Assembly: GCA_025917655.1 (NCBI GenBank)
Contig: CP084612.1
Location: 930,001 to 994,000 of the forward strand
DNA from: Chlorella sorokiniana
Taxonomy: Eukaryota > Chlorophyta > Trebouxiophyceae > Chlorellales > Chlorellaceae
Length of the DNA: 64,000 nucleotides
Reading direction: 5' to 3'
In this document: one piece after another, positions 20,965-34,032 of the stretch
How positions within the stretch are numbered: the stretch's first letter is position 1
How the letters are laid out: each line of letters starts with the position of its first letter
The notes under the pieces: model-generated
The model's input: only the letters and a program-made list of their open reading frames with translations
The model's database searches: none
What the model was told of the DNA's origin: nothing
Made by a program: the position numbers and the translations under genes

Positions 20965-23900
20965 ATGCGTGCCTCTCGGCTCGCCCCGCGGCTTCTGGAG
21001 GCCTTGGGCCGCGCCACGCGCGCCCCGTCCCTGCAGCAGGCGTTCAGCTCGGCAGGCAGCGCCGTCGCCGCTGCCAGCAGGAGCGCCGCGGAGCTGGGCT
21101 CGCCAGCAGTGGGCGGCGGTGGCGGCTTGCCTGGGCGCGGGCGTGGTGGGCGCCCAAGTGCTGCGCAGCAGCGACAGTACGGCAGAATGCGAGGCTGCGG
21201 CCCCGCCGCCGGATGCCGCAGGTGGACCGCCGCTGCTGCAGTACACCTGCTTTGTGGCGCGTGCGCGTGCCAGCTTCTGCGTGCCGCCCTGGTGTCAGGC
21301 CTTTCCAGGGCTGGAGGCCTGCGCAGGCGGCCATCGCCTGCACTCGCAGGCGGTGCTTGTGCAAGCGACGCGCGCCTGCTGCCGCTGCAGGCGCTGCAGA
21401 GGGCGCCGTTGCCGCCGCCATCGAGGCCGCTCCTCCCAAGAAGAAGACGCGCATCGTTGTGCTGGGCTCAGGCTGGGGCGCGGTGGCCTTCCTGAAGAAC
21501 CTGGATTGGAAGGGGGCGTTTGGACGTGAGCGCCGCCGCTGGCATGCGGCATGACGGGGGGTCCAGCCGCCGTCGGGCTGCGCGTGCCACCGCTGCAGCG
21601 CTGGCACCCTGCCCGGCTGACTGTCCAAGCAAGGCCTGGCCGAGGAAGGCCTGACTAACAACCAACCTTGTGCTGTTGCCGTTTTGTACCGCAGCCGACG
21701 GGCAGTACGAGGTGGTGGTGGTGTCCCCCGCTCCTACTTCCTCTACACCCCGCTGCTGCCGGGCGCGGCGGCGGGCTCCGTTCAGGAGCGGTCCATCCTG
21801 GAGCCCATCCGCAACCTGCTGCAGGGGCAGGTGCGTGAGAGTGTGTGGAGGGGTCGGGGTTGGGGATGGCGGCGTGGCAGTGGACCGAGCGCGCGGGGCC
21901 CACCGGCGCGTGCACGCTGCCTCGCGGGCCAACGTGCATGCGTTGGCCGCCCCTCTGGCGCTGCGCTTACCTCGATCGGAACTGGCCATTGCTTTCCAGC
22001 CATAATTGTGCTAGACAGCCCACCTGTACCCCCCTCCGATGCACACATACCCACCCACAGATTCACTAACTCACTACCCCTCCCAACCCCTGTTCTGCAG
22101 GGCCAGTACTACCAGGCCGAGTGCACCGCCATCGACGCCGAGCGCCGCGTCATCCACTGCGCCGTGGACAAGTGCCAGGCAGGCGGGGCAGCGGGGTGTG
22201 GCGGCCCAGCGCTGCTGTATGAAAAGTTGTTGTCGTGGACGTGGAGATGGGGCGGTCGGCAACCCCGTGCCGCCGGCTGCCTGAACCGCGCCTCCCGCGT
22301 GCCTCCTGCCCTCCCACCCCCGACTGTGCACACCTGCCGGCAGGTGTGCAAGTCTGCGGAGCACACCCAGGACTGCGCGGGCGCGACCAGCGCGCCAAGC
22401 GCCGGGGCCTGTGGCTGCCCTGGGGCGGGCCAAGCAGGTGGCCGCCGCCCCTGAGCGCGACATGTTTGAGGTGCCCTACGACATCCTGCTGGTCGGGGTG
22501 AGAGGGCACTGCAGGGAGAGAGGAGAGTGGGGCGCTGAAGGGGGTTGGGGGGCACAGGGCTGGCAGCGCCCGCATTGCAGAGGGCCACGGGCGGCACCGC
22601 TCGCACCGGATCGCAGGCTGCCCTCGGCCGTGCCGCCTGCCTGGCAAGCCGCCGTCCTGAAGCGCCGGTGCCCCTGTGCTGCCGGCAGGAGCATGCTTGC
22701 CCCTGGGCTATGTCGATTTATGTTTTGTCTGTTCGATTCCACACCCTTTTGCCCTGCAGGTGGGTTCCGTGAACAACACGTTTGGCATCCGGGCGTGGCC
22801 GAGCGCTGCTTCTTCCTCAAGTCCATCGACGATGCCCACCGCCTGAGGGTGCACATCAGGTGTGGGTGTGTGGGTGGGCGTGGGTGGGGGGAACGGGAGC
22901 GCAAGTGAACAGCGGCAGCGCGCCCGTCGACTTTGGAATGTCTTGCGGATTGCGCTGCATCTAGGCAGTGCGGTGCTGGTAACCTCTGTTGGTCAGGGCT
23001 GCGTTGCGGCCTGTCAGCACGCGCGGGCTTTGTTGGTTCGCCCGGTCTTTTGCAGCCTGCAGCAGGGCCTGCTCACGCCGACCGGCCTCCTCCCCCACAC
23101 ACACACTCCCCACCCTCGCACTTGCAGCAAAGTGGTGGAGCACGCCAGCCTGCCGCACCTGAGCAAGGAGGAGCGCTGCCGCCACCTCAACTTTGTGGTG
23201 GTGGGCGGCGGCCCCACGGGGGTGGAGCTGGCGGCCGAGCTGCACGACTTTGTGCAGGAGGACGTGGCCCGCCTCATGCCGCACCTCAAGGTGTGTGGGG
23301 AGGTGGAGGGGGTTTCATGGTGGGGTCGGTTGGTGCGGGGCCACCTGCCGGCGAGGCGGGGCGGGCTGGTTGGCCAGCAGGGTGGATCATGGACGCCATC
23401 CAGCTGCTCCCAACACGACGCCCGCTCACTGCGCTGCGCTCCTTCTCTTCTCCCTCGGCTCCCCCACCAAAAATCAACGCCCCGCGTGAGCAGGGCGCAC
23501 ATCCGCATCAGCATGCCTGTTAATTCTGCAACACCTCCCCCGCGCGACGCAGGGCGACATCCGCATCAGTGTCCTCGACACTATGGACCATCTTTTAGGC
23601 GAGTAGTTCTCCCGACGCCTGCCCGTCAGACACATGCTTGCCTGCCTGCCTGGCTCATCCCTCCTGCCCCCACCACCACCACACACCCACACACCCCCAC
23701 ACACCCACACACAACCACTGACCATCTTTTAGGCGCGTTCGACCGCACCCTCAGCGAGTACACCGCCAACCACTTCAACCGGGAGGGCATCGACGTGCAG
23801 CTGCGCACTATGTGGGCGGCTGCCGCCGGGAGAGAGAGGGGGTGGAGATGGAGGGCAATAACGGCTGTGCTTGTGAGCGCACGGCGAGCGCGGTGGCTGC

Positions 23901-26509
23901 CTTGTTGCATACAAGATCACCCCCGCCCCCTGCCTTTATTGGTCCCAGGGTGCGAAGCGTGGGGGACGGCGAGCTGACTGTGACGCGCAACGGCAGCCCC
24001 CAGGAGGAGAAGGTGCCCTTCGGCACCTGCGTCTGGGCCACCGGCATCGCCATGCACCCGCTGGTGGGCCTGCTGCGCTGCGCTGGGCGGGCGGCAGCGA
24101 GTTGCCGGGAGGCCAGCGGCAGCCGGCGTGGCAACCGCACAGCCGCGCATGCGCAGCCCCGTCGGTCGACCGGCAGCTCGAGTTTGCCGGAGAAAGCCCT
24201 GGAGCCCTGCACACGTGCGCATGCCGCATGTTCTCGGCCCCTCGCATCCACCATCTCCTCCCCCTCCCCCAGGTGCGTGCGCTCAAGGAGCAGCTGCAGC
24301 GGGGCCTTGACGACGTGCAGAACTCGCGCACCGGGCTGGTGGTGGACCACCACTTGCGCGTCAAGGGCACCAACGGAACCGTCTTCTGCATGGGGGACGC
24401 CGCCGTCATACACCAGGTGGGCTGCGTGTGTGTGGTGTGTGTGTGTGTTTGGGGGCGGCGGCGAAGCCGCGGGATTGTGGACTGCGAGAAGCCCGGCTCA
24501 GACTGCACGCGCGCTGGGTTCGAGATGCCCTGCGACAAGGCCCGGGTCCTGCTGCTGGTGCCGCGGCCGCGCAACGCAGCGGCGCGTGCCTCTCTGGAGA
24601 AGGCCCGCCACGCCCTGGAGCCTCCCGCCCGAAACGCCCGCCCCTCCTTGTGCGAGCACGATGCAGGACAAGGCGGTGGAGAACGCGGCGAAGCTGTTTG
24701 CGGAGGCCGACAGCAACAAGGACAACTGCCTGTCCCGCACCGAAGTCACCGACCTGCTCAAGCGGGTGGGTGGGCGGGTGGGGCTGCGGGTTTCATACTG
24801 TTTGTGGTGCGTGTGGGCTGCGCTCTCTTGCTGGGCTGCGGGGAGTAACGCGGTATGAGTGTGTGTATTGGAGGGCGGAGTGGGGTTCTCTTGCCTGGGC
24901 AGGGTGGCCAGGCAGCAGAGCGCAGGTCTGGCGGGGGCGTGTACGCAGGTGCAGCCTCTCTCCGGCCGTGCGGGCGCAGCCTGGCTGGCTTTCGAACCGC
25001 CCCCGCCTGGCCAACGTCTCACCCCGTTGGCGCCTTTGGGTACCGCAGGCGGGCAAGCAGTACCCTCAGATGGGCGAGCTGGCGGCCATGCTGGAGGAGG
25101 GGGTGCTGGAGAAGGCGGCGCGCGGTGTATGGGGCTCCTCCCGCAAGGAGGGCCGCTACTCCAAGTGCGCCTCAAGGGGCTGGGTGGCCGGTGGCTGCTC
25201 GCGGTGTTGCCCGCTGGCCAGGCCGCCCCGCTTTCACGTCCTAAGCAGGTTCCGGGTTGATTGCCCACAAGCACACATGTATGCCTTCCTCCCCTTCCCT
25301 TTCCCATAAAAAACCAACCGAACTCCAATAACACACCATTTACAAGCTGCCGCCCGCGTGCGCCCCCTTTGTGCCCCCACGACGTTCCCCTTCACGCAGG
25401 CACATCGAGCGGCTGAAGAAGGGGCTGTCGTTCGAGGAGTTCCAGGAGCTGCTGCGCGACATGGACACCCTCATGCGCTCGCTGCCGCCCACCGCGCAGG
25501 CAAGCCCTGCGGTTAGGGAGGCACGGGGGAGGAGGCAAGAGCAAGAGAGCCGCTGCGCAAACAGGCGGCTGCAGGGCTGCTCTGCGAAAGGGCCGGCAGG
25601 CTCACGCGGCAGCCGGCCTGGTTGACGGGTGCCTGGGGGGTCGAGAGGCCTCTGTCGGCGGAAGGGGGTTGAACTGACCTCGCTGTGCTTGCTGTGAACG
25701 CTGTCCATTGTGACCACCACCATTTACACACACTCCCTTTGCCCCCTCCACCTCGGCTGCCCCCCCCGCAGGTGGCCTCTCAGGAGGGCAAGTACCTGGC
25801 CAAGCTGTTCAACTCGCACACCCTGGCCGCCGTCCCCGCCCGCCCCCGCCCTGGCCGCGGCCTACGGCAACCCGCACGACAAGAACATCGGCTTGGATGT
25901 GTGGGTGCCCATGCCCCCCGACGCGGCGCCCTTCAAGTGAGCCGCAGCGCCCGCCCGTGGACCGGTGGAACTGCCGCTCTTCTGCAGCAAACCTCTTGAT
26001 CTGTCACACGAGGATGGTTTCCATGCGGCCGCCGCGTGCATTTGCAGCCTTGCGCGCCAGGGCGAGGGGTTTGGGCGCCCGAGCTGTGCGTGCTGACCGT
26101 GCCGCCGTGCGCTGGCGCTCCCCGCCCACCCGCAGGGCCCGCTTCTTCGGCAGCTTTGCGTACGTGGGCATGGATCGCGCGGTGCTGTCCCTGCCCGGCA
26201 CCTTCCCCTTCTCCGCCCTCCAGGGCTGGCTGGTGGGGCTGACCTGGCGCGGCTTCGAGACCTGGGGCCAGGTGTGTGTGTGGGGGAGGGGGAGGGGAGG
26301 CTGCTGCGCCGCTCTATGGGCAGGCGCAGGGCGCCACCCACTCGCATGCCCTGCTGCCGTGCTGCCCCCAGGCAACACACCCACCCATTCGCACCGGCCC
26401 ACCCGCTCCTCCCCTGCCTGCTGTGCAGGTGTCTGCCCGCAACCGCTGGATGGTGCAGAGCGACTGGCTGCGCACCAAGCTGTTTGGGCGCAACCTGAGC
26501 GAGGTGTAG
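20965..26509 (+). CDS. Type II NAD(P)H dehydrogenase with EF-hand (NDB-like)
   Basis: These single-subunit flavoenzymes oxidise NAD(P)H and reduce quinone without pumping protons; EF-hand forms usually face the intermembrane space and respond to calcium. The start ([21 protein letters not shown]) looks like a mitochondrial leader, followed by a short hydrophobic stretch. Visible motifs in order: [19 protein letters not shown] (FAD Rossmann, about 21448-21505), [18 protein letters not shown] (about 21715-21770), [19 protein letters not shown] (NAD Rossmann, about 23188-23240), [29 protein letters not shown] (about 24373-24415), EF-loop [12 protein letters not shown] (about 24710-24745), [10 protein letters not shown] and the C-terminal [19 protein letters not shown] then [13 protein letters not shown]. 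Single missing bases are evident at 21725-21729, 22791-22793 and about 25831-25855. The stop is TAG 26507-26509. Confidence 0.88.
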
Positions 26510-27225
26510 GGGGCAGCGTTGCCGCCAGGAAGCTGCCGTGAAGCTGCCTCCGTGCTGACATGGTGCCGCTGCTCGGCCCCCTGCCTCGAACAAGCATATG
26601 CCACACTTCCCTTACACCCCACCTCAGCTGTCCGTCGCATCTGTCGCTGCGGCAGGCTCGTTGGTGCTCTTCTGCCACAAGCACATAAAGTTTCGCTCAG
26701 AGCGGCTCCTCCTGCACATGCCCCTGCACATTTCCTAGGGGTTGGCCTGCCCGCTCGCCGTGCGGCTGCGCCTGTCCACTGCAGGCGGCGGCTCTCATGG
26801 CAGGGCAACCCTGCTCCCCGTCATATCCCAGCGACCACCCCCCGCACTTGTCACACAAGCACCCGGTTGCATGTATTCTAGCATACACACCCTGCTTTCC
26901 ATTGCCATTTCATTCCAGTCAGCTTTCAGGACGTCTTGGGTGTGCTGAAGCAACCAATGCTACATTGTGTAAAGCAGACGAATGCCAGGCCTCAAGCTGA
27001 CAGCTGGGGCGGACGAGTTGAGAAGGCGGCGCCGCTGGAAAGCGTGCCGCCAGCACCACAGCCATGTGACATGTTTGTGCGCCGGATGCGCAGGTCGTTG
27101 CACACCTTTGGACCAGTATCATATAGCGCCCAGCATCAAACCTGCGCCTTGAGCGGCGGCCTGTAGAGAAACCCTTCGGGCGAACAGCGCTTCCAGCGCT
27201 CGCAGCGGGCGAATTACGATCCGAA
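26510..27225. other. NDB 3' region and promoter of the chimeric kinase gene
   Basis: No gene supported. A TGTAA lies at 26968-26972, 459 nt past the NDB stop, and may end its transcript. The segment after it should contain the next gene's promoter. Confidence 0.45.
26968..26972 (+). promoter_or_regulatory. TGTAA poly(A) signal, NDB gene
   Basis: First plus-strand TGTAA after the NDB stop. The distance is long for a 3' UTR but within the range seen in green algae. Confidence 0.4.
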
Positions 27226-30200
27226 ATGAGCACGCCAAGCGGAAGGGAGGAGTGCCAACCGCGGGATGAGCCTGCCCAGGGGACGGCGCTGCCTGCGAGG
27301 CCGCCCACCGAGAAACGCAAGCGCAGCGACAGCGTGGGATCGCTGGAGCCGCAGCCAGTGGTGGCTGCCAGCGCCATGGACACGCCTGCCCACGTGCAGC
27401 GCCAGCCAACAGCCGAAAAACAGCAGCTGGCGCCCGCCGCCGCACGCCCTCGCTGCCGACGCCCCCCCGCCGCCGTTGTAGCGCGGGTGCAGCGCAGCCA
27501 GGGCCCGAGGCGTTGGCATGAAGACGAATGCGCCGGCGATAATGCACACTTGGGAGGGCACCCTGAGCTGCAGCCTGGAGATGAAGAGTTCTTCGGTGCT
27601 CTAGAGGTGCCGCCCCCTTCTCCTGGCCCAGCGCCCTGACGCCACGCATCTGCGCCCACGCCACCCACCTGCCGCCAAACCATTGCATGCTCCCGTGCGA
27701 CAGGGCCCCACACCTTCTCTGTCCGTGCCCACCAGGTTGAGGAGGCGGAGCGTGAGCTGGCGCCAGAGGCGGCGAAGGAGCGGCGCCTGCTGCGCCTGCT
27801 GCTGCACCTGAAGAACGGCGAGCGGCCGCAGTACAAGTCCGCGCTGAAGCAGCTCACGGGTGAGCTTCGCGCTGCCGCTGCTGCATCGGCGGAAGGGAGG
27901 CTGCTCCCACCTCGGCTGAGCAGAGCCTGATGCTGCCGCGTCCATGAACGCACGCCATCCTTTTTTCTCCTTCCTTCCTTCAGAGAGCGCCCGTGAATTT
28001 GGTGTTCACCTGCTGGTTGGCAAGATGCTGCCGATGCTTCAGTCCGCGCTGCTGGGGGAGGCCGAGCGGAGGCGGCTGGTCAAGGTGAGGTGGCAGCACC
28101 CCGCTGCATGTGCTCTGCCGCCTGCCTGCTGGTCGCCGACTTCGAGCTGTGATGCCCAGGCCCTGAGCTGGTTGGCACCCCTGCCCCCCCAATGATGTTA
28201 TCAAGGCGCTGGATCGGGCTCTGTTTAAAATCAAAGAGCTGGTGAGGGCGCCATGGAGGGTCAAGCATTCCGTGCGCTCCTCTTTCCCAGGCCGCATGCA
28301 TCACCCCGCGCCCGTTGAGCGCTGCCTCACGGATTGCTCCGCCGCACCTGAGCTCCTTCCCTTCGTCGCCCGCCCCTGCAGCTGCCCAAGAAGCGCATGC
28401 CCGCCTCGAAGCTGCGGCGCAGGTTTGCATCCGCCCTGGACCCCCGGCCCTGGACGCTGCTGGAGACCGAGCTTGTGGTCGACCCCCAGCCGCTGGGCCG
28501 GGGCTCCTACAGCGAGGTGTGCTGGGAGGTCGAGGGCACGGGAGTTCAGCAGGGAGCAGGAGCAGCAAGCTAACGGCGCTTGTTACAGGCTCCCCCAGCC
28601 CCCGACTCCCCCCCACAGCGCCCTCCGTTGCTGCCTCTGCCCCCACAGGTGCACCTGGCCGACTGGCACGGCACCATGGTCGTGTTCAAGAAATTCTTGC
28701 GCAGCAGGGGCAGGAGCTGCGTCGGGCACGACAGCCAGCCGCTGGACACCGCACTAGCCCGGGCAGAAGAGGTGGGGTGGCATGCATCGCCGTTTTAGTT
28801 CTTTTGTTGTTTTTGTGTGCGGTGGCGATGGTGGATGAGGGAATGGGCTGAATCAGGGGCGGGGGAGGGGGTTGGAGGGGGCGCTTAACCCTAAGCGGTT
28901 GTTGCCACCTTCGCCCGTGGCCCCCCGGGCCCCACCCCGCAGGAGGCGAGCTTGTTGGCGCTCCTGCGCCACCCAAACGTGGTGCCCTTCCTCGGCCTGT
29001 GCCGCTCGCCGCCCGCCGTGGTCATGGGTGGGTTGGGCTGCTTGCATGGGCCGCCGCCCTCTTCTCCTGCCTGCCGCTCGCCGCCTGGACATGCCTTGCC
29101 GGCTGGCATGCCGACGTGTGTACCACTTCCGCCGCCGCCCTGCAGAGTATTGTGCACGGGGATCGCTGTGCGACGTGTTGAAGGCTGCACGCAGCGACCC
29201 GGCGCTGGCTGCCGAGCTGAGCTGGCAACGCCGCCTCAACCTGGTGCGACCCGCTCTCCTCAAACTCCTTCACATCCCCATCGTGTTGCCGTTGTGCGTG
29301 TCGGCCCGTTTCCCTTATTCCACATCCCTGGTTCTCCGCCCGTTTACCACACCGCTCCTCAGGCGCTGGACCTGGCCTGCGGGATGGCGTACCTGCACAC
29401 CCGCCCCGCCCCTGTCGTGCACCGCGACCTCAAGTCGCCCAACTGCTTTGTCGCCGCCGACTGGCGCCTGAAGGTGGGCCGGCACGCGGGGCTGCGCCCC
29501 AGTGAGCCCGGGCCCCTGCTCTTGCGTGTGCAGGTTTGCGCCGCCGCCGCTGCTGCAGGCAGCAGACTGTTTTTGCGCTGCCAGGGGTGCGGTCATGCAG
29601 GCTGTTGGCTGGCAACCTCCTCCCGCTCTTACCGCAGGTGGGAGACTTGAACCTCAGCAAGGTGCTGGAGAACGGGGAGGCGAGCAGCGACGGCGAGGCG
29701 GTGATGAACTCGGTGAGCGCCCTGCCGGCCCGCGAGGACAGCCGACCTGGGACGCCGGGCGTGCCCGCAGGCAGCCAAGGCTGCAGGCTCACGCCTCATG
29801 CCTCGTGTGTGGTGCCCCCAATCTCCACCCCCGCTGTCCGCCTGCAGCGCTGGTTGGGGCCGGAGGTGACAAGCGGCGGGCCGGCCACGCTGGCAGCCGA
29901 TGTCTACTCTGGCAGCATGGTGCTGTGGGAGCTGCTGACCTGGCAGCTGCCCTGGGCGGGGGAAAACAACACGTGGGAGGTGTGCTTGGTGGTGTGGATG
30001 AGTGGTGATGTGGCTTGTGGTGGTGTTGAGAGCCTGTGGGGCTCCGCGGCAGGATGGTGGTGGTGTGTGTGGGTGATGTGGGGTGGTAGCTGGGGGTGGA
30101 ACCATAGCTGCGCAGTAGGTGGGGTTTGGGGTCCGGGGGGTTGGGTGTGTTTGTGGGGGTTGGGGTGTGTGTGTGTGTGGTGGGGGGGGCAAACAGCCCA

Positions 30201-30620
30201 GGCACTTCCCGAGCGCCTTCCATGCCGTTGTGTTGTGTACTTGCTGTCTACTTTGCATGTGCCCTGTGCCCGGAACCGGTAGCCATGCTGGCGCTTGCAC
30301 TTCCATGTTTAAGACGTAGTTCTACCTGCATGCTGCCAATTCTGCTCATGCAGATCGCAAGACAGATCAGAATCGGTGAGCGGCCGCCAGTGCCTCCACT
30401 GGAGGAGCTGCCAGGCCCAGCAGCAGCATCCGTCCCTGGCTTGAACGCGTACATCGCCCTCATGCGGCGGTGCTGGGACCCACGGGCCGAGGCTCGGCCC
30501 TCCTTTGTCGAGGTTGCTGCGGAGCTCAGGTGTGCTGGCTTACTGAAGGGGCTGCTGCCGCTGGTGGCGTCGCTTCACGCCGCAGCGGAAAGCGCGCCAT
30601 TCCAGGTCAGAGCGATATGA
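27226..30620 (+). CDS. SF3B1-fragment / Raf-like protein kinase chimera
   Basis: Exons A 27226-27606, B 27736-27859, C 27984-28084 and D 28206-28241 give a basic low-complexity head (EKRKRSDSVGS). This leads into a clear match to the start of the SF3B1 HEAT array: ERELAPEAAKERRLL, LKNGERPQYKSALKQLTE, SAREFG, LVKALDRALFKIKEL. SF3B1 is the U2 snRNP SF3b155 subunit; here homology stops after the first repeat or two. Exon E (28382-28516) joins in phase 0 and starts a TKL/Raf-like kinase: glycine loop PLGRGSYSEV, lysine in MVVFKKF, LRHPNVVPFLGL, catalytic HRDLKSPN (29420-29443), GDLNLSK in place of DFG, RWLGPEV for the APE site, DVYSGSMVLWELLTWQLPW and RCWDPRAEARPSF. The C-terminus is unsettled: reading through ends at 30620, while splicing at 30605 to about 30651 would end near 30724. 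All junction phases from A to E agree, but one transcript is not proven. Confidence 0.68.
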
Positions 30621-30724
30621 TTTGCCTGCATGAGCCCCTATCTCGAGTGCAGGAAGCTTCTGAAGGAGGAAGATCAGGCTGCGCAACAGCCAACAGCTGT
30701 GCCCGCCAGACGGGAGGAGCTTGA

Positions 30725-31578
30725 GGCAGCAGCGGGCGCGGCGCTGGACTGCGGAGCGCAGCGGGTATCCAACGACGAAGATGCGCCGGCAAGGCCTGCC
30801 AAGCGAGCCCGGGCCGCACCCAGCCCAACACACACTAGACAGGCTTGCGGCTGGCTGCACCAACTGTGCTGACCCCGCTGCCTGTGGCGTTGGGCTGCTG
30901 CGCGTTGTGGCAGTGGAGGCGAGTGCCGCCTGTGGCTAGCGTGAAAAGCAGACGGCGCCTCCCCCTTTTTGCATCCACTTTTCTTTTGCGAAATCTGTGG
31001 TGAGGGAACCCTAAGAAACAACCAGAACCAGCAGATTGGAATCCGGGTGCCAGGTGGATCCGGGCAAAAGCAGGGGACGAGCATGAAAAGCCGGGCTGGT
31101 TGAACCCTTCCACTCGTCATTTCTCTAAGCGACATTGCAAAGGGAAGCACCTTGACTAAGGTTGGTTCTTGTGCCGGGCACATGCGGGTGCCTTGCCGTC
31201 GCACCCCGCGGCCAGCTTGCAGCCTCGATGGTTGTTATGCGTCACGAATGTACATGGCAACACGAGCAAGATGCACCGACCAAGCCCGCTCAGGGCTTCA
31301 AGCAAACGACAGCAGCCACTTGCCTTGCAGTCTGCCTCTGTTCTGCCCCTGTCGGTTGTTGCGTCACGTGCTTTTGAGTTTAACCATGACTGTCGAGCTC
31401 GCGGCCGCCAGGTGCCGAGCGCCGGGTCGGCCGGCCGCGGCCCAGACGCCGCTGGCGGCGCTGCAGACATTGCGGCTCTGTGGGCCCCTCCCCCACCCCC
31501 CAACCTTCAACTCTCCCCACAAGCAGCCCCAAACTATTCACTCACTCGGTATGTTACGCTCGTTCCTGTCGCAGCAAC
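30725..31578. other. Intergenic, kinase 3' flank and cystatin promoter
   Basis: A frame at 30630-30872 encodes a basic tail ending RPAKRARAAPSPTHT, which could be an alternative last kinase exon. Beyond about 30900 nothing coding is seen. The segment 30950-31380 is less GC-rich. Confidence 0.4.
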
Positions 31579-33474
31579 CATGCGTCCTGCCGGCATCCTG
31601 CTCCTCACGCTGCTCCTGGGGGCGGCGCTCGCGTCTGCTGTGGGCGACGACGGCATGGACGGCCATGACGGCCAACAGTACGGCAGCTTTGGGCCCCCCC
31701 GCCACCTGTGGGCCCGAGGGCCTGCCCGGCGGGTGGAGCAAGATTGAGGGCGGCGTGGCCGACAACGTGCTGGAGGCGGTGCTGCAGGAGCTGGACGCCG
31801 CATACGGTGCGGTTTGGGGCAGCAGGGCTGCGAAGCTGGTGCTGCGTGGGGGCTGACAGGGACTCAAGCAGGGACCGGAGGATGAGGAGTGGGAGAGAAC
31901 ATGAGCGAGAGCTTGCCGGTGCGTCTCTGACTGCCGCCCCGTCGCCCCCTCCGCCCCACCGCCCTCCCGCCCCTCGCCTCTCTGGCAGGCGCCAACCTGA
32001 CCGCTCTGCTGGGTGGCTCCGAGTTCTGTCCCCCGAGGACCTGGACACTTCCGTGGACGGGTGCTCCCAGGTGGTGGCTGGCACCAACTACAAGGTGAGC
32101 CGGGCGTGCCGCGGGCCAGAACACCGCGCCGCCCGGCTGCAGGCTCTGCGCGGCATGCGCCTCGCAGGGACCCAACAAAGCATTGCCTTGCCCAAGGCAG
32201 GGAGCAGGCTTGCAGCACCCCTGACAAGGCCCCCTTTCCCCCTGAGAAGCTGTGGGTCAACGTGTCGTGCGCTACAGCAGGCGCCAACTACACGCTGGGG
32301 CTCATCGTGGATGCCTTCGAGCCGCTGCCCTCCGCCGCCAACACCGCGGTGCAGGTGGGCGGGCTCTGCTTGGGCGGAGTGGAGGAGGGAGAAAGGGGGG
32401 CACGGGGGGCCTGAACGGGCCTGCTCCCACCCTCCACCCATGTGTGTTTGCACCAAGTCGGCGGCCTGTGGCGGCGACTGCCCCCTTGGCATGCCAGCCT
32501 GTCGGCTTCCGGAACTTGCTAGCTTCCGGAATCATGATCCTCGCCCCCAGCCATCCGCAACGCTTTTTGCCTTCCCGCTTCCGCTGTCATCACTCCGCTG
32601 CGTCTCCATGTTTGCATCCGTTACAGATCTACGACCTTGATGTCGAGTTCATCGCCAGGAACGGCTACCAGCTGAACATAGATCTGGACGATGGTGGGCA
32701 GGGGCGGGGGGCTCAACTACGGGGAGTCGTGCACAACAGAAGGGGTCCACCCAGGGATGCCGAAGCGGGTGCTGCTGGTTCGTGCCCGCCGCTCCCGGCC
32801 TTCAGCACGCTGTGCTGTGCCCACCCCCCGGCCCTCCCTCCCTTGTTCCAGGCATGCACGACGACCGCTTTGATTTCAACACCACCATCGGCGGAATCAC
32901 CTCCAACGACGACTGGTGAGGCGGCTGCCAGCTGGTTGGCTTGTGGCAGATCTGCCAGCAGCGACGAATCCCGCCCGGGGGTGCGGGGGGGGTGCGGCGG
33001 TGGTATGGATCTCCTTGCCCTTCAGCACGAAGGTGGCCAGCCCAGACGCTTCACACTATTGCCGCCGGCGGAGCATGCGCAGGACGGGGGATGGGAGCGA
33101 CGCCAGCGACGACACCATTGGAAGCACCACCTCCGATGCATTGGTGAGCGAGGGCGACACCGACCTGGATGACGCGTCTGGCGCCAGCAGCATGGACGAC
33201 GGCGACAGCGACGACCTGGGCGACAACAACGGTGGGTGCTGGGCCTGCGGCGGCAGCCGGCGAAGCCGGCCAACAGGCTGAGGGCGGGGTGCCTCCCGGC
33301 TGGCAGCCACGGCGACCCTGTGGGGCATGCAGCAGCATGCATGAACACCCCGTCACACGAGCCGGCCTGCGACTCAACGCTGGCATAATCTTCCTCCTGG
33401 GCCCCGCAGGCCTGAACCCCAACACAAACACCGTGACTGGCGTGGTAGGCAGCGCCGCTGGCGGCCGCCGTTGA
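31579..33474 (+). CDS. Secreted cystatin-like cysteine-protease inhibitor with acidic tail
   Basis: The ATG at 31579 opens a good signal peptide (MRPAGILLLTLLLGAALASA). The next part reads GGWSKIEGGVADNVLEAVLQELDAA, with the N-terminal glycine and helix of cystatins, then GSEFCPPEDLDTS and the inhibitory-loop motif QVVAGTNYKLWVNVSC (about 32068-32272), matching QxVxG. Later exons encode ANYTLGLIVDAFEPLP, IYDLDVEFIARNGYQLNIDLD (32627-32693), FDFNTTIGGITSNDDW, a Ser/Asp-rich acidic stretch (about 33024-33230, e.g. DDASGASSMDDGDSDD) and a short C-terminus (stop 33472-33474). Frame slips sit at the C runs 31694-31700 and 32030-32034. Cystatins block papain-type proteases; a secreted or vacuolar place of action is inferred. 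The acidic tail is not a usual cystatin feature. Confidence 0.7.
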
Positions 33475-34032
33475 GAGCAGAGTGACGGGCCGGCGCTGCC
33501 CTGGCTGGAGCACGCGGGTGTGGGGCAACGCCACGTTTTAAAGGCCCATCCAGCAATGCACAGAACAGGCTTGCACATGACATGCACTGGAGCTCTCCAG
33601 CGCTGAAGCCAACTTTGAGCTGAAGTTAGTACGCGCGGCAAGAAGCCAAGACTTGTGGCCATCCGGATGACACCCACACTTGCATTGATCCCATTGCACA
33701 CTTTTGCGAATGATTGGTCAATATATCCTGTTTCCACCCTTACTGGTTTGTACTCTTTCCGTCCAGACAACGAGCGCAGACCCTGTTAACAGCGCAGCAG
33801 TAGCTTCACACACCAATTTCCACTGTCTTCGAGGGTCTTCAAGGGGCATTCAAATCACTGTCTGATTTGAGCTGAGTTGAAGTGGGTTACAAGGGCCGCA
33901 TGCGGGCTCAGCTCTGCGGCAGTTGTGTTAGCGGCACCTCGCTCTGCCCGCTTTGCGACAGCAGGCTATCTCTGCGTGATGCCGCCCTCAGCCCCGCCAG
34001 TTTGAGTTTCCCCGTATTCATCAAGTGCAGCC
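33475..34032. other. Intergenic, relatively AT-rich
   Basis: No gene seen. From 33600 to 33900 the base composition is clearly less GC-rich. It probably contains the cystatin 3' UTR and the promoter of the coiled-coil gene. Confidence 0.4.

Follow-up and report, generated by a model that had tools for sequence, protein, structure and literature searches.

SF3B1 (SF3b155; Hsh155 in yeast) carries some 20 HEAT repeats, and its residues 1–490 are termed the N-terminal region in PMC13332222. For human pre-Bact, that paper describes a shift of the module formed by SF3B6 and SF3B1(394–430) from HEAT 12–14 to HEAT 1–2, which its authors infer to be driven by CDK11 phosphorylation of the SF3B1 N-terminus, as well as a stabilization of the SF3B6 module at HEAT 1–2 by SNIP1 of the RES complex. 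SF3B6 is positioned on HEAT 1–2 of SF3B1 in published structures (PMC13332222 and PMC5835773). The window analyzed here, a stretch of 64,000 nucleotides (C10:930001-994000) in a genome searched over 38.8 Mb and 15 contigs, holds a predicted gene that has in common with SF3B1 the homology to human residues 472–566 and intron positions of the parent gene. In contrast to SF3B1, the predicted product possesses two of the some 20 HEAT repeats, has no PF08920 motif, shows changes at about half of the residues on which parent and human SF3B1 agree and bears an added kinase.

As modeled from GT..AG splice dinucleotides, phase and homology, the predicted chimeric gene comprises 13 exons and 598 codons (598 aa) at 27226-30872 on the plus strand, with consistent phase throughout. 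Its parts are as follows.

27226..27606, plus strand: exon 1, aa 1–127; SF3B1-like in the last 19 codons only (from about 27550); basic motif KRKR
27736..27859, plus strand: exon 2, SF3B1-like, lead-in and HEAT 1 (VEEAERELAPEAAKERRLLRLLLHLKNG...KQLT)
27984..28084, plus strand: exon 3, SF3B1-like, covering the last part of HEAT 1 and the bulk of HEAT 2; 101 nt, the same as in the parent
28206..28241, plus strand: exon 4, SF3B1-like, end of HEAT 2 (ALDRALFKIKEL); 36 nt; weak AAG acceptor
28242..28381, plus strand: predicted fusion intron, 140 nt, donor GTGAGG
28382-28516, 28649-28771, 28943-29027 and 29146-29243, plus strand: exons 5–8, first part of the linker and TKL kinase domain stretch encoded by exons 5–12
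29363-29473, 29638-29712, 29848-29979 and 30354-30529, plus strand: exons 9–12, rest of the linker and TKL kinase domain stretch
30653..30872, plus strand: exon 13, continuation past the kinase domain (RKLLKEE) and tail with the basic motif RPAKRAR; stop codon at 30870–30872

The original prediction placed the start of SF3B1 similarity at 27226 and the coding end at 30620, and both limits had to be moved. Similarity is only detectable within the 3′ end of exon 1, outside of which this exon has no clear homolog across the genome (best non-self match with E 0.2). At the other side, the last full kinase exon already stops at 30529 (AG|gtgtgc, with the donor position as in the sister kinases on contig C8), and the final exon ending with the stop codon had been overlooked; the latter is supported by an alignment to CTR1 which runs on across the exon 12/13 join. 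The proposed phase-0 junction between exon 4 and the kinase exon starting at 28382 holds, as exons 1–4 total 642 nt, and the fusion intron has splice scores of 7.0 (donor) and 7.8 (acceptor). Exon 4, combining a weak acceptor with a length that is a multiple of three, could be subject to alternative skipping, which would yield an in-frame chimera minus the last part of HEAT 2.

Flanking the chimeric gene, the downstream gene at 31580-33475 (plus strand) looks like a secreted protease inhibitor of the cystatin superfamily with a very acidic stretch. It has a below-cut-off Pfam match to SQAPI (E 0.006) and a QVVAGTNYK motif which we take as a sign of this superfamily. Its signal-peptide-like part and the inhibitor part lie in different frames, and the part before PEDLDTS likewise changes frame. 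C runs mark each of these changes, which may reflect indels in the assembly or introns that escaped recognition. The upstream gene at about 23700-26510 (plus strand) resembles type II NADH dehydrogenases, the C-terminal exon giving a sub-cut-off match to NDH2_C (E 1.7e-5), and presumably includes an EF-hand-like stretch, judged by pattern.

The SF3B1 identity of the captured piece is clear. When a 96-aa query was compared with PDB chains by phmmer, residues 2–96 aligned to human SF3B1 472–566 with E 7e-20 (full-length chain), without a gap in the two alignments printed, and the seven distinct sequences matched at E ≤ 0.001 were all SF3B1 or Hsh155. The four motifs on which the assignment was initially based (KERRLL, LKNG, SAREFG and LVKALDRALFK) are all found in the exons named for them. 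The fragment spans HEAT repeats 1–2 plus the lead-in; similarity stops at the HEAT 2/3 boundary, so that the array of about 20 repeats typical of SF3B1 is not present, and a Pfam comparison of the chimera at E ≤ 1 gave no match to the SF3B6/p14-binding motif PF08920. Compared with the SF3B1 of its own genome, the fragment is identical at 54 of 106 positions (51%), and with human SF3B1 at 43/94, while the genome's own SF3B1 and the human protein agree at 81/94, indicating that the fragment has evolved far faster than the parent. No further copies of it were found in the genome by a loose first pass, the three candidates scored being the chimeric gene twice and the true SF3B1 once, and a scan of viral contigs with the fragment gave 108 pattern matches with no relative among them.

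The parent is a separate gene on the minus strand of contig C2 (within C2:4413500-4423400), the one other SF3B1 locus of this genome. Its protein sequence runs to the C-terminal end, 20 introns could be placed, and the two genome-wide matches of the PF08920 profile both lie within it. In the last exon of this gene (locus L006, minus strand, near 1430), the reading frame shifts between NNVYIG and AQDALVALYPRM; as the gene is essential, this is probably an assembly indel rather than a real break.

Comparison of the two genes illustrates how the chimera may have arisen. Two introns, after QLT (phase 1) and after LVK (phase 0), have identical positions in fragment and parent, and the first intron is one codon off in the ungapped alignment (exon 2 of 124 nt versus 121 nt in the parent). 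With two parental introns matched exactly and a third within a codon, a partial duplication at the DNA level is indicated, and an origin by retrocopying is out, as parent introns are still present. Exon 4 of the fragment has 36 nt, the corresponding parent exon 119 nt. At the cut site, the parent reads GAG CTG GTG CGC CCC and the chimera GAG CTG|GTG AGG GCG, placing the new splice donor on the Val-Arg codons (GTG CGC) of the parent; past this site, no parent homology is visible in the alignment of the chimera with the C2 SF3B1. Exon capture after partial duplication, as first proposed, is thus borne out by conserved intron positions and phases, by the separate parent gene and by a donor inside parental coding sequence. 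When HEAT repeats are taken as about 38 residues each starting near residue 490, the cut would fall at the boundary between HEAT 2 and HEAT 3, the repeat spacing itself being inferred, and the chimera would consequently hold two whole repeats plus the lead-in. A copy predating the split of plants and animals is disfavored, since at the 14 sites where the genome's own and human SF3B1 differ, parent-specific residues exceed human ones (eight versus three). A repeat origin of the junction was likewise rejected, the stretch 28085–28420 matching the genome once, at itself.

The kinase half gives Pfam matches to PF07714 (E 6.1e-40) and PF00069 (E 1e-29). Its nearest solved structure among the best 60 of 2137 matches is that of plant CTR1 (3ppz, E 1.2e-39), and in this alignment the beta3 Lys, the alphaC Glu, HRDLKSPN with the HRD Asp and the Asn, and the Asp at the DFG position are all matched; we take these five residues to be the catalytic ones. 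DFG is altered to DLN, with the Asp kept, and APE to GPE. By domain and catalytic residues, the product would belong to the TKL protein kinases, with activity being predicted. Of the initial designation as TKL/Raf-like kinase, the TKL part stands, with CTR1 rather than Raf as nearest structure and with nearest relatives in the genome that possess a transmembrane segment. While the kinase domain is shared with plant CTR1 and Raf-like TKL kinases, the chimera matches neither a Raf RBD/C1 nor a CTR1 N-terminal regulatory domain in Pfam; apart from the two kinase families, its only hits at E ≤ 1 are MGA_dom and APG6_N, both below the cut-off.

In a tree of 16 kinase paralogs chosen from 88 genome matches (rows assembled from tblastn segments, 206–287 columns filled), two kinases in tandem on contig C8 form the sister group of the chimera (support 96/92). 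Five intron positions of the chimera, including the last donor, recur in one or both of these C8 genes, as judged by donor or acceptor sequence, and the intron before EYC is absent in the C8 pair and present in C6. Both the C8 pair and two kinases on contig C6 feature a hydrophobic segment followed by an arginine run ahead of the kinase, whereas the chimera has the SF3B1 exons instead. By 19-residue hydropathy, no transmembrane segment was found before the chimera kinase, the top mean value being 1.36 versus 2.35–2.53 in three paralog stretches, the one from C6 having been joined manually across an apparent intron. Sisterhood to the C8 pair, common introns and the missing hydrophobic segment make the kinase half look like a receptor-type kinase that has lost its membrane part. 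TKL kinases also occur as neighboring pairs elsewhere, namely in L042 (C8:974500-984400), L037 (C6) and L041 (C7), with hydrophobic segments in the C8 and C6 pairs, which suggests that a family of receptor kinases is expanding here.

From gene structure and homology, it can be proposed that a part of the SF3B1 DNA, including the exons for human residues 472–566, was copied in the lineage of this genome. A 5′ splice site on the Val-Arg codons, whose use is predicted, would then have allowed the copied exons to be joined to a kinase exon in phase 0. According to tree and intron positions, the kinase would share descent with the transmembrane receptor-like TKL kinases, minus the transmembrane segment. 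Taken jointly, these three steps are considered highly probable.

As a further step, the product is envisaged as a soluble, nuclear kinase in which the pair of HEAT repeats, together with its lead-in, would provide the docking element, a real chimeric gene of this kind being the best overall explanation, albeit a tentative one. We take KRKR near the N-terminus (exon 1) and KRAR near the C-terminus to be NLS-like patterns, and they suggest a nuclear protein, such motifs being weak evidence in an arginine-rich proteome. The genome encodes SF3B6, which is 80% identical over residues 34–82. The original idea of docking on SF3B1 partners or on the U2 snRNP becomes more specific with the structures showing SF3B6 on HEAT 1–2 (PMC13332222 and PMC5835773). 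Given the shift of SF3B6 to HEAT 1–2 reported in the former, the captured piece corresponds to the part on which SF3B6 docks, minus the peptide embracing SF3B6 (PMC13332222). Hence, the most specific candidate partner would be SF3B6 with the SF3B1(394–430) peptide, sitting on HEAT 1–2 during human activation. Once docked, the kinase would have SF3b, RES or neighboring factors as its phosphorylation targets, or would compete with SF3B1 for SF3B6. Docking of the chimera on SF3b/SF3B6 is conceivable, though still somewhat doubtful. A functional analog would be CDK11, also a kinase at the SF3B1/SF3B6 switch, which is the proposed site of the chimera. CDK11 is a cyclin-dependent kinase (PMC13332222), whereas the tether of the chimera would be built in.

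Among the other explanations, the one that fares best also assumes a real chimera, in which the HEAT pair has ceased to bind the spliceosome and acts as a generic helical scaffold or as an autoinhibitory or dimerizing module of a kinase with an unrelated substrate. Of the 81 residues common to parent and human SF3B1, the fragment retains only 40. A binding surface may therefore not have been preserved, and the combination of such losses with conservative changes would be expected if the fold and not the binding surface were maintained. Moreover, only two of the repeats are available. On the other hand, the kept lead-in, the cut between HEAT 2 and HEAT 3 and the basic motifs would suit a protein working in the nucleus, although no single one of them is decisive. 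The scaffold explanation is a serious yet uncertain possibility, with about the same likelihood for a generic helical module as for a kinase tethered to or competing for SF3B6.

A chimeric product is not assumed if the locus consists of two adjacent units, with the SF3B1-like exons either decaying as a relic or giving a short transcript of their own and the kinase being transcribed alone, for example, from the in-frame ATG in exon 5 (MPASK). This would be compatible with the weak acceptor of exon 4 (TTATCAAG), which scores −2.18, the lowest of 16; an AAG acceptor is also found in one of the 20 parent introns (catgaag|GTGCCTGAG, L006 minus strand near 2490, placed by protein continuity). However, the two parts are just 140 nt apart and continuous in phase 0 with intact splice dinucleotides, and the 106 aligned codons contain neither a stop nor a frameshift. 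Neutral simulations to the same identity were stop-free in 24% (GC 65%) or 38% (GC 75%) of the runs, and absence of stops alone was not significant as evidence of selection (0.12 to 0.41 of simulations stop-free). The joint neutral probability of no stop and no frameshift is 0.0001–0.04 at assumed indel:substitution ratios of 0.1–0.03. In addition, the amino acid changes are conservative, with a mean BLOSUM62 score of −0.10 compared to −0.74 to −0.80 in neutral simulations, of which only 4, 5 and 7 of 2000 runs reached −0.10 at three base compositions. Two further indications of constraint were discarded. Retention of hydrophobic class (29/37) was not above neutral, being reached in 715, 412 and 232 of 2000 simulations. 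The excess of third-position changes (57/106 versus 66/212, chi-square p 1.5e-4) was dropped as proof of selection, as synonymous changes also accumulate on the side of a conserved parent, and the same excess would be seen with a neutral copy. GC3 amounts to 0.83 in exons 2–4, 0.82 in the kinase exons and 0.93 in the parent SF3B1, with 0.58 in exon 4 alone (12 codons). No TGTAA occurs on the plus strand between 27 and 34 kb, which is a weak or uninformative argument against two units, since none follows the kinase either. Altogether, the tests favor a constrained protein over a relic, while the constraint on the fragment could date to an earlier full-length stage before truncation. Two separate units are therefore regarded as unlikely.

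A chimera acting as decoy, with the HEAT pair sequestering SF3B6 or RES factors from the true SF3B1 and the kinase domain only controlling binding, would profit from the fact that the fragment is without the SF3B6-binding peptide and everything from HEAT 3 onwards (PMC13332222), so that it could compete with SF3B1 and not replace it; the catalytic residues, superfluous for a pure decoy, are nevertheless in place, and this explanation is very improbable. An assembly error fusing two loci, for which one might invoke the small indels apparent in the last exon of the parent SF3B1 and in the gene downstream of the chimera, can practically be dismissed, because a misplaced real SF3B1 cannot explain a fragment differing from it at half its residues, and the junction stretch is unique in the genome with ordinary splice scores on either side.

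That genes can be born by exon shuffling and that kinases can acquire new N-termini is already known. Among exon-shuffled kinases, the pairing of SF3B1 HEAT repeats with a kinase, its splice-site origin still being visible, appears to be new; in keeping with the original statement that no protein of this architecture was known, no SF3B1-kinase fusion was among the matches listed in the open-access literature, which by itself does not prove absence. As Pfam does not detect the SF3B1 part of the chimera, similar chimeras may have been overlooked. Returning to the chimera as a real, soluble kinase with a HEAT 1–2 docking element, the most far-reaching and rather improbable proposal is that a kinase of receptor origin was redirected to the spliceosome by acquiring HEAT 1–2, the surface to which SF3B6 shifts once CDK11 has licensed activation, thus representing a built-in, possibly signal-controlled competitor of or assistant to the CDK11 switch. 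If the gene is expressed, a core spliceosome protein would have donated a structurally exact module of two whole HEAT repeats to a signaling enzyme, and the splice site that made the chimera would still be readable as two codons of the parent. The expressed protein would also provide a natural minimal HEAT 1–2 probe with which to study how SF3B6 relocates, and would be a candidate for a direct link from kinase signaling to spliceosome activation.
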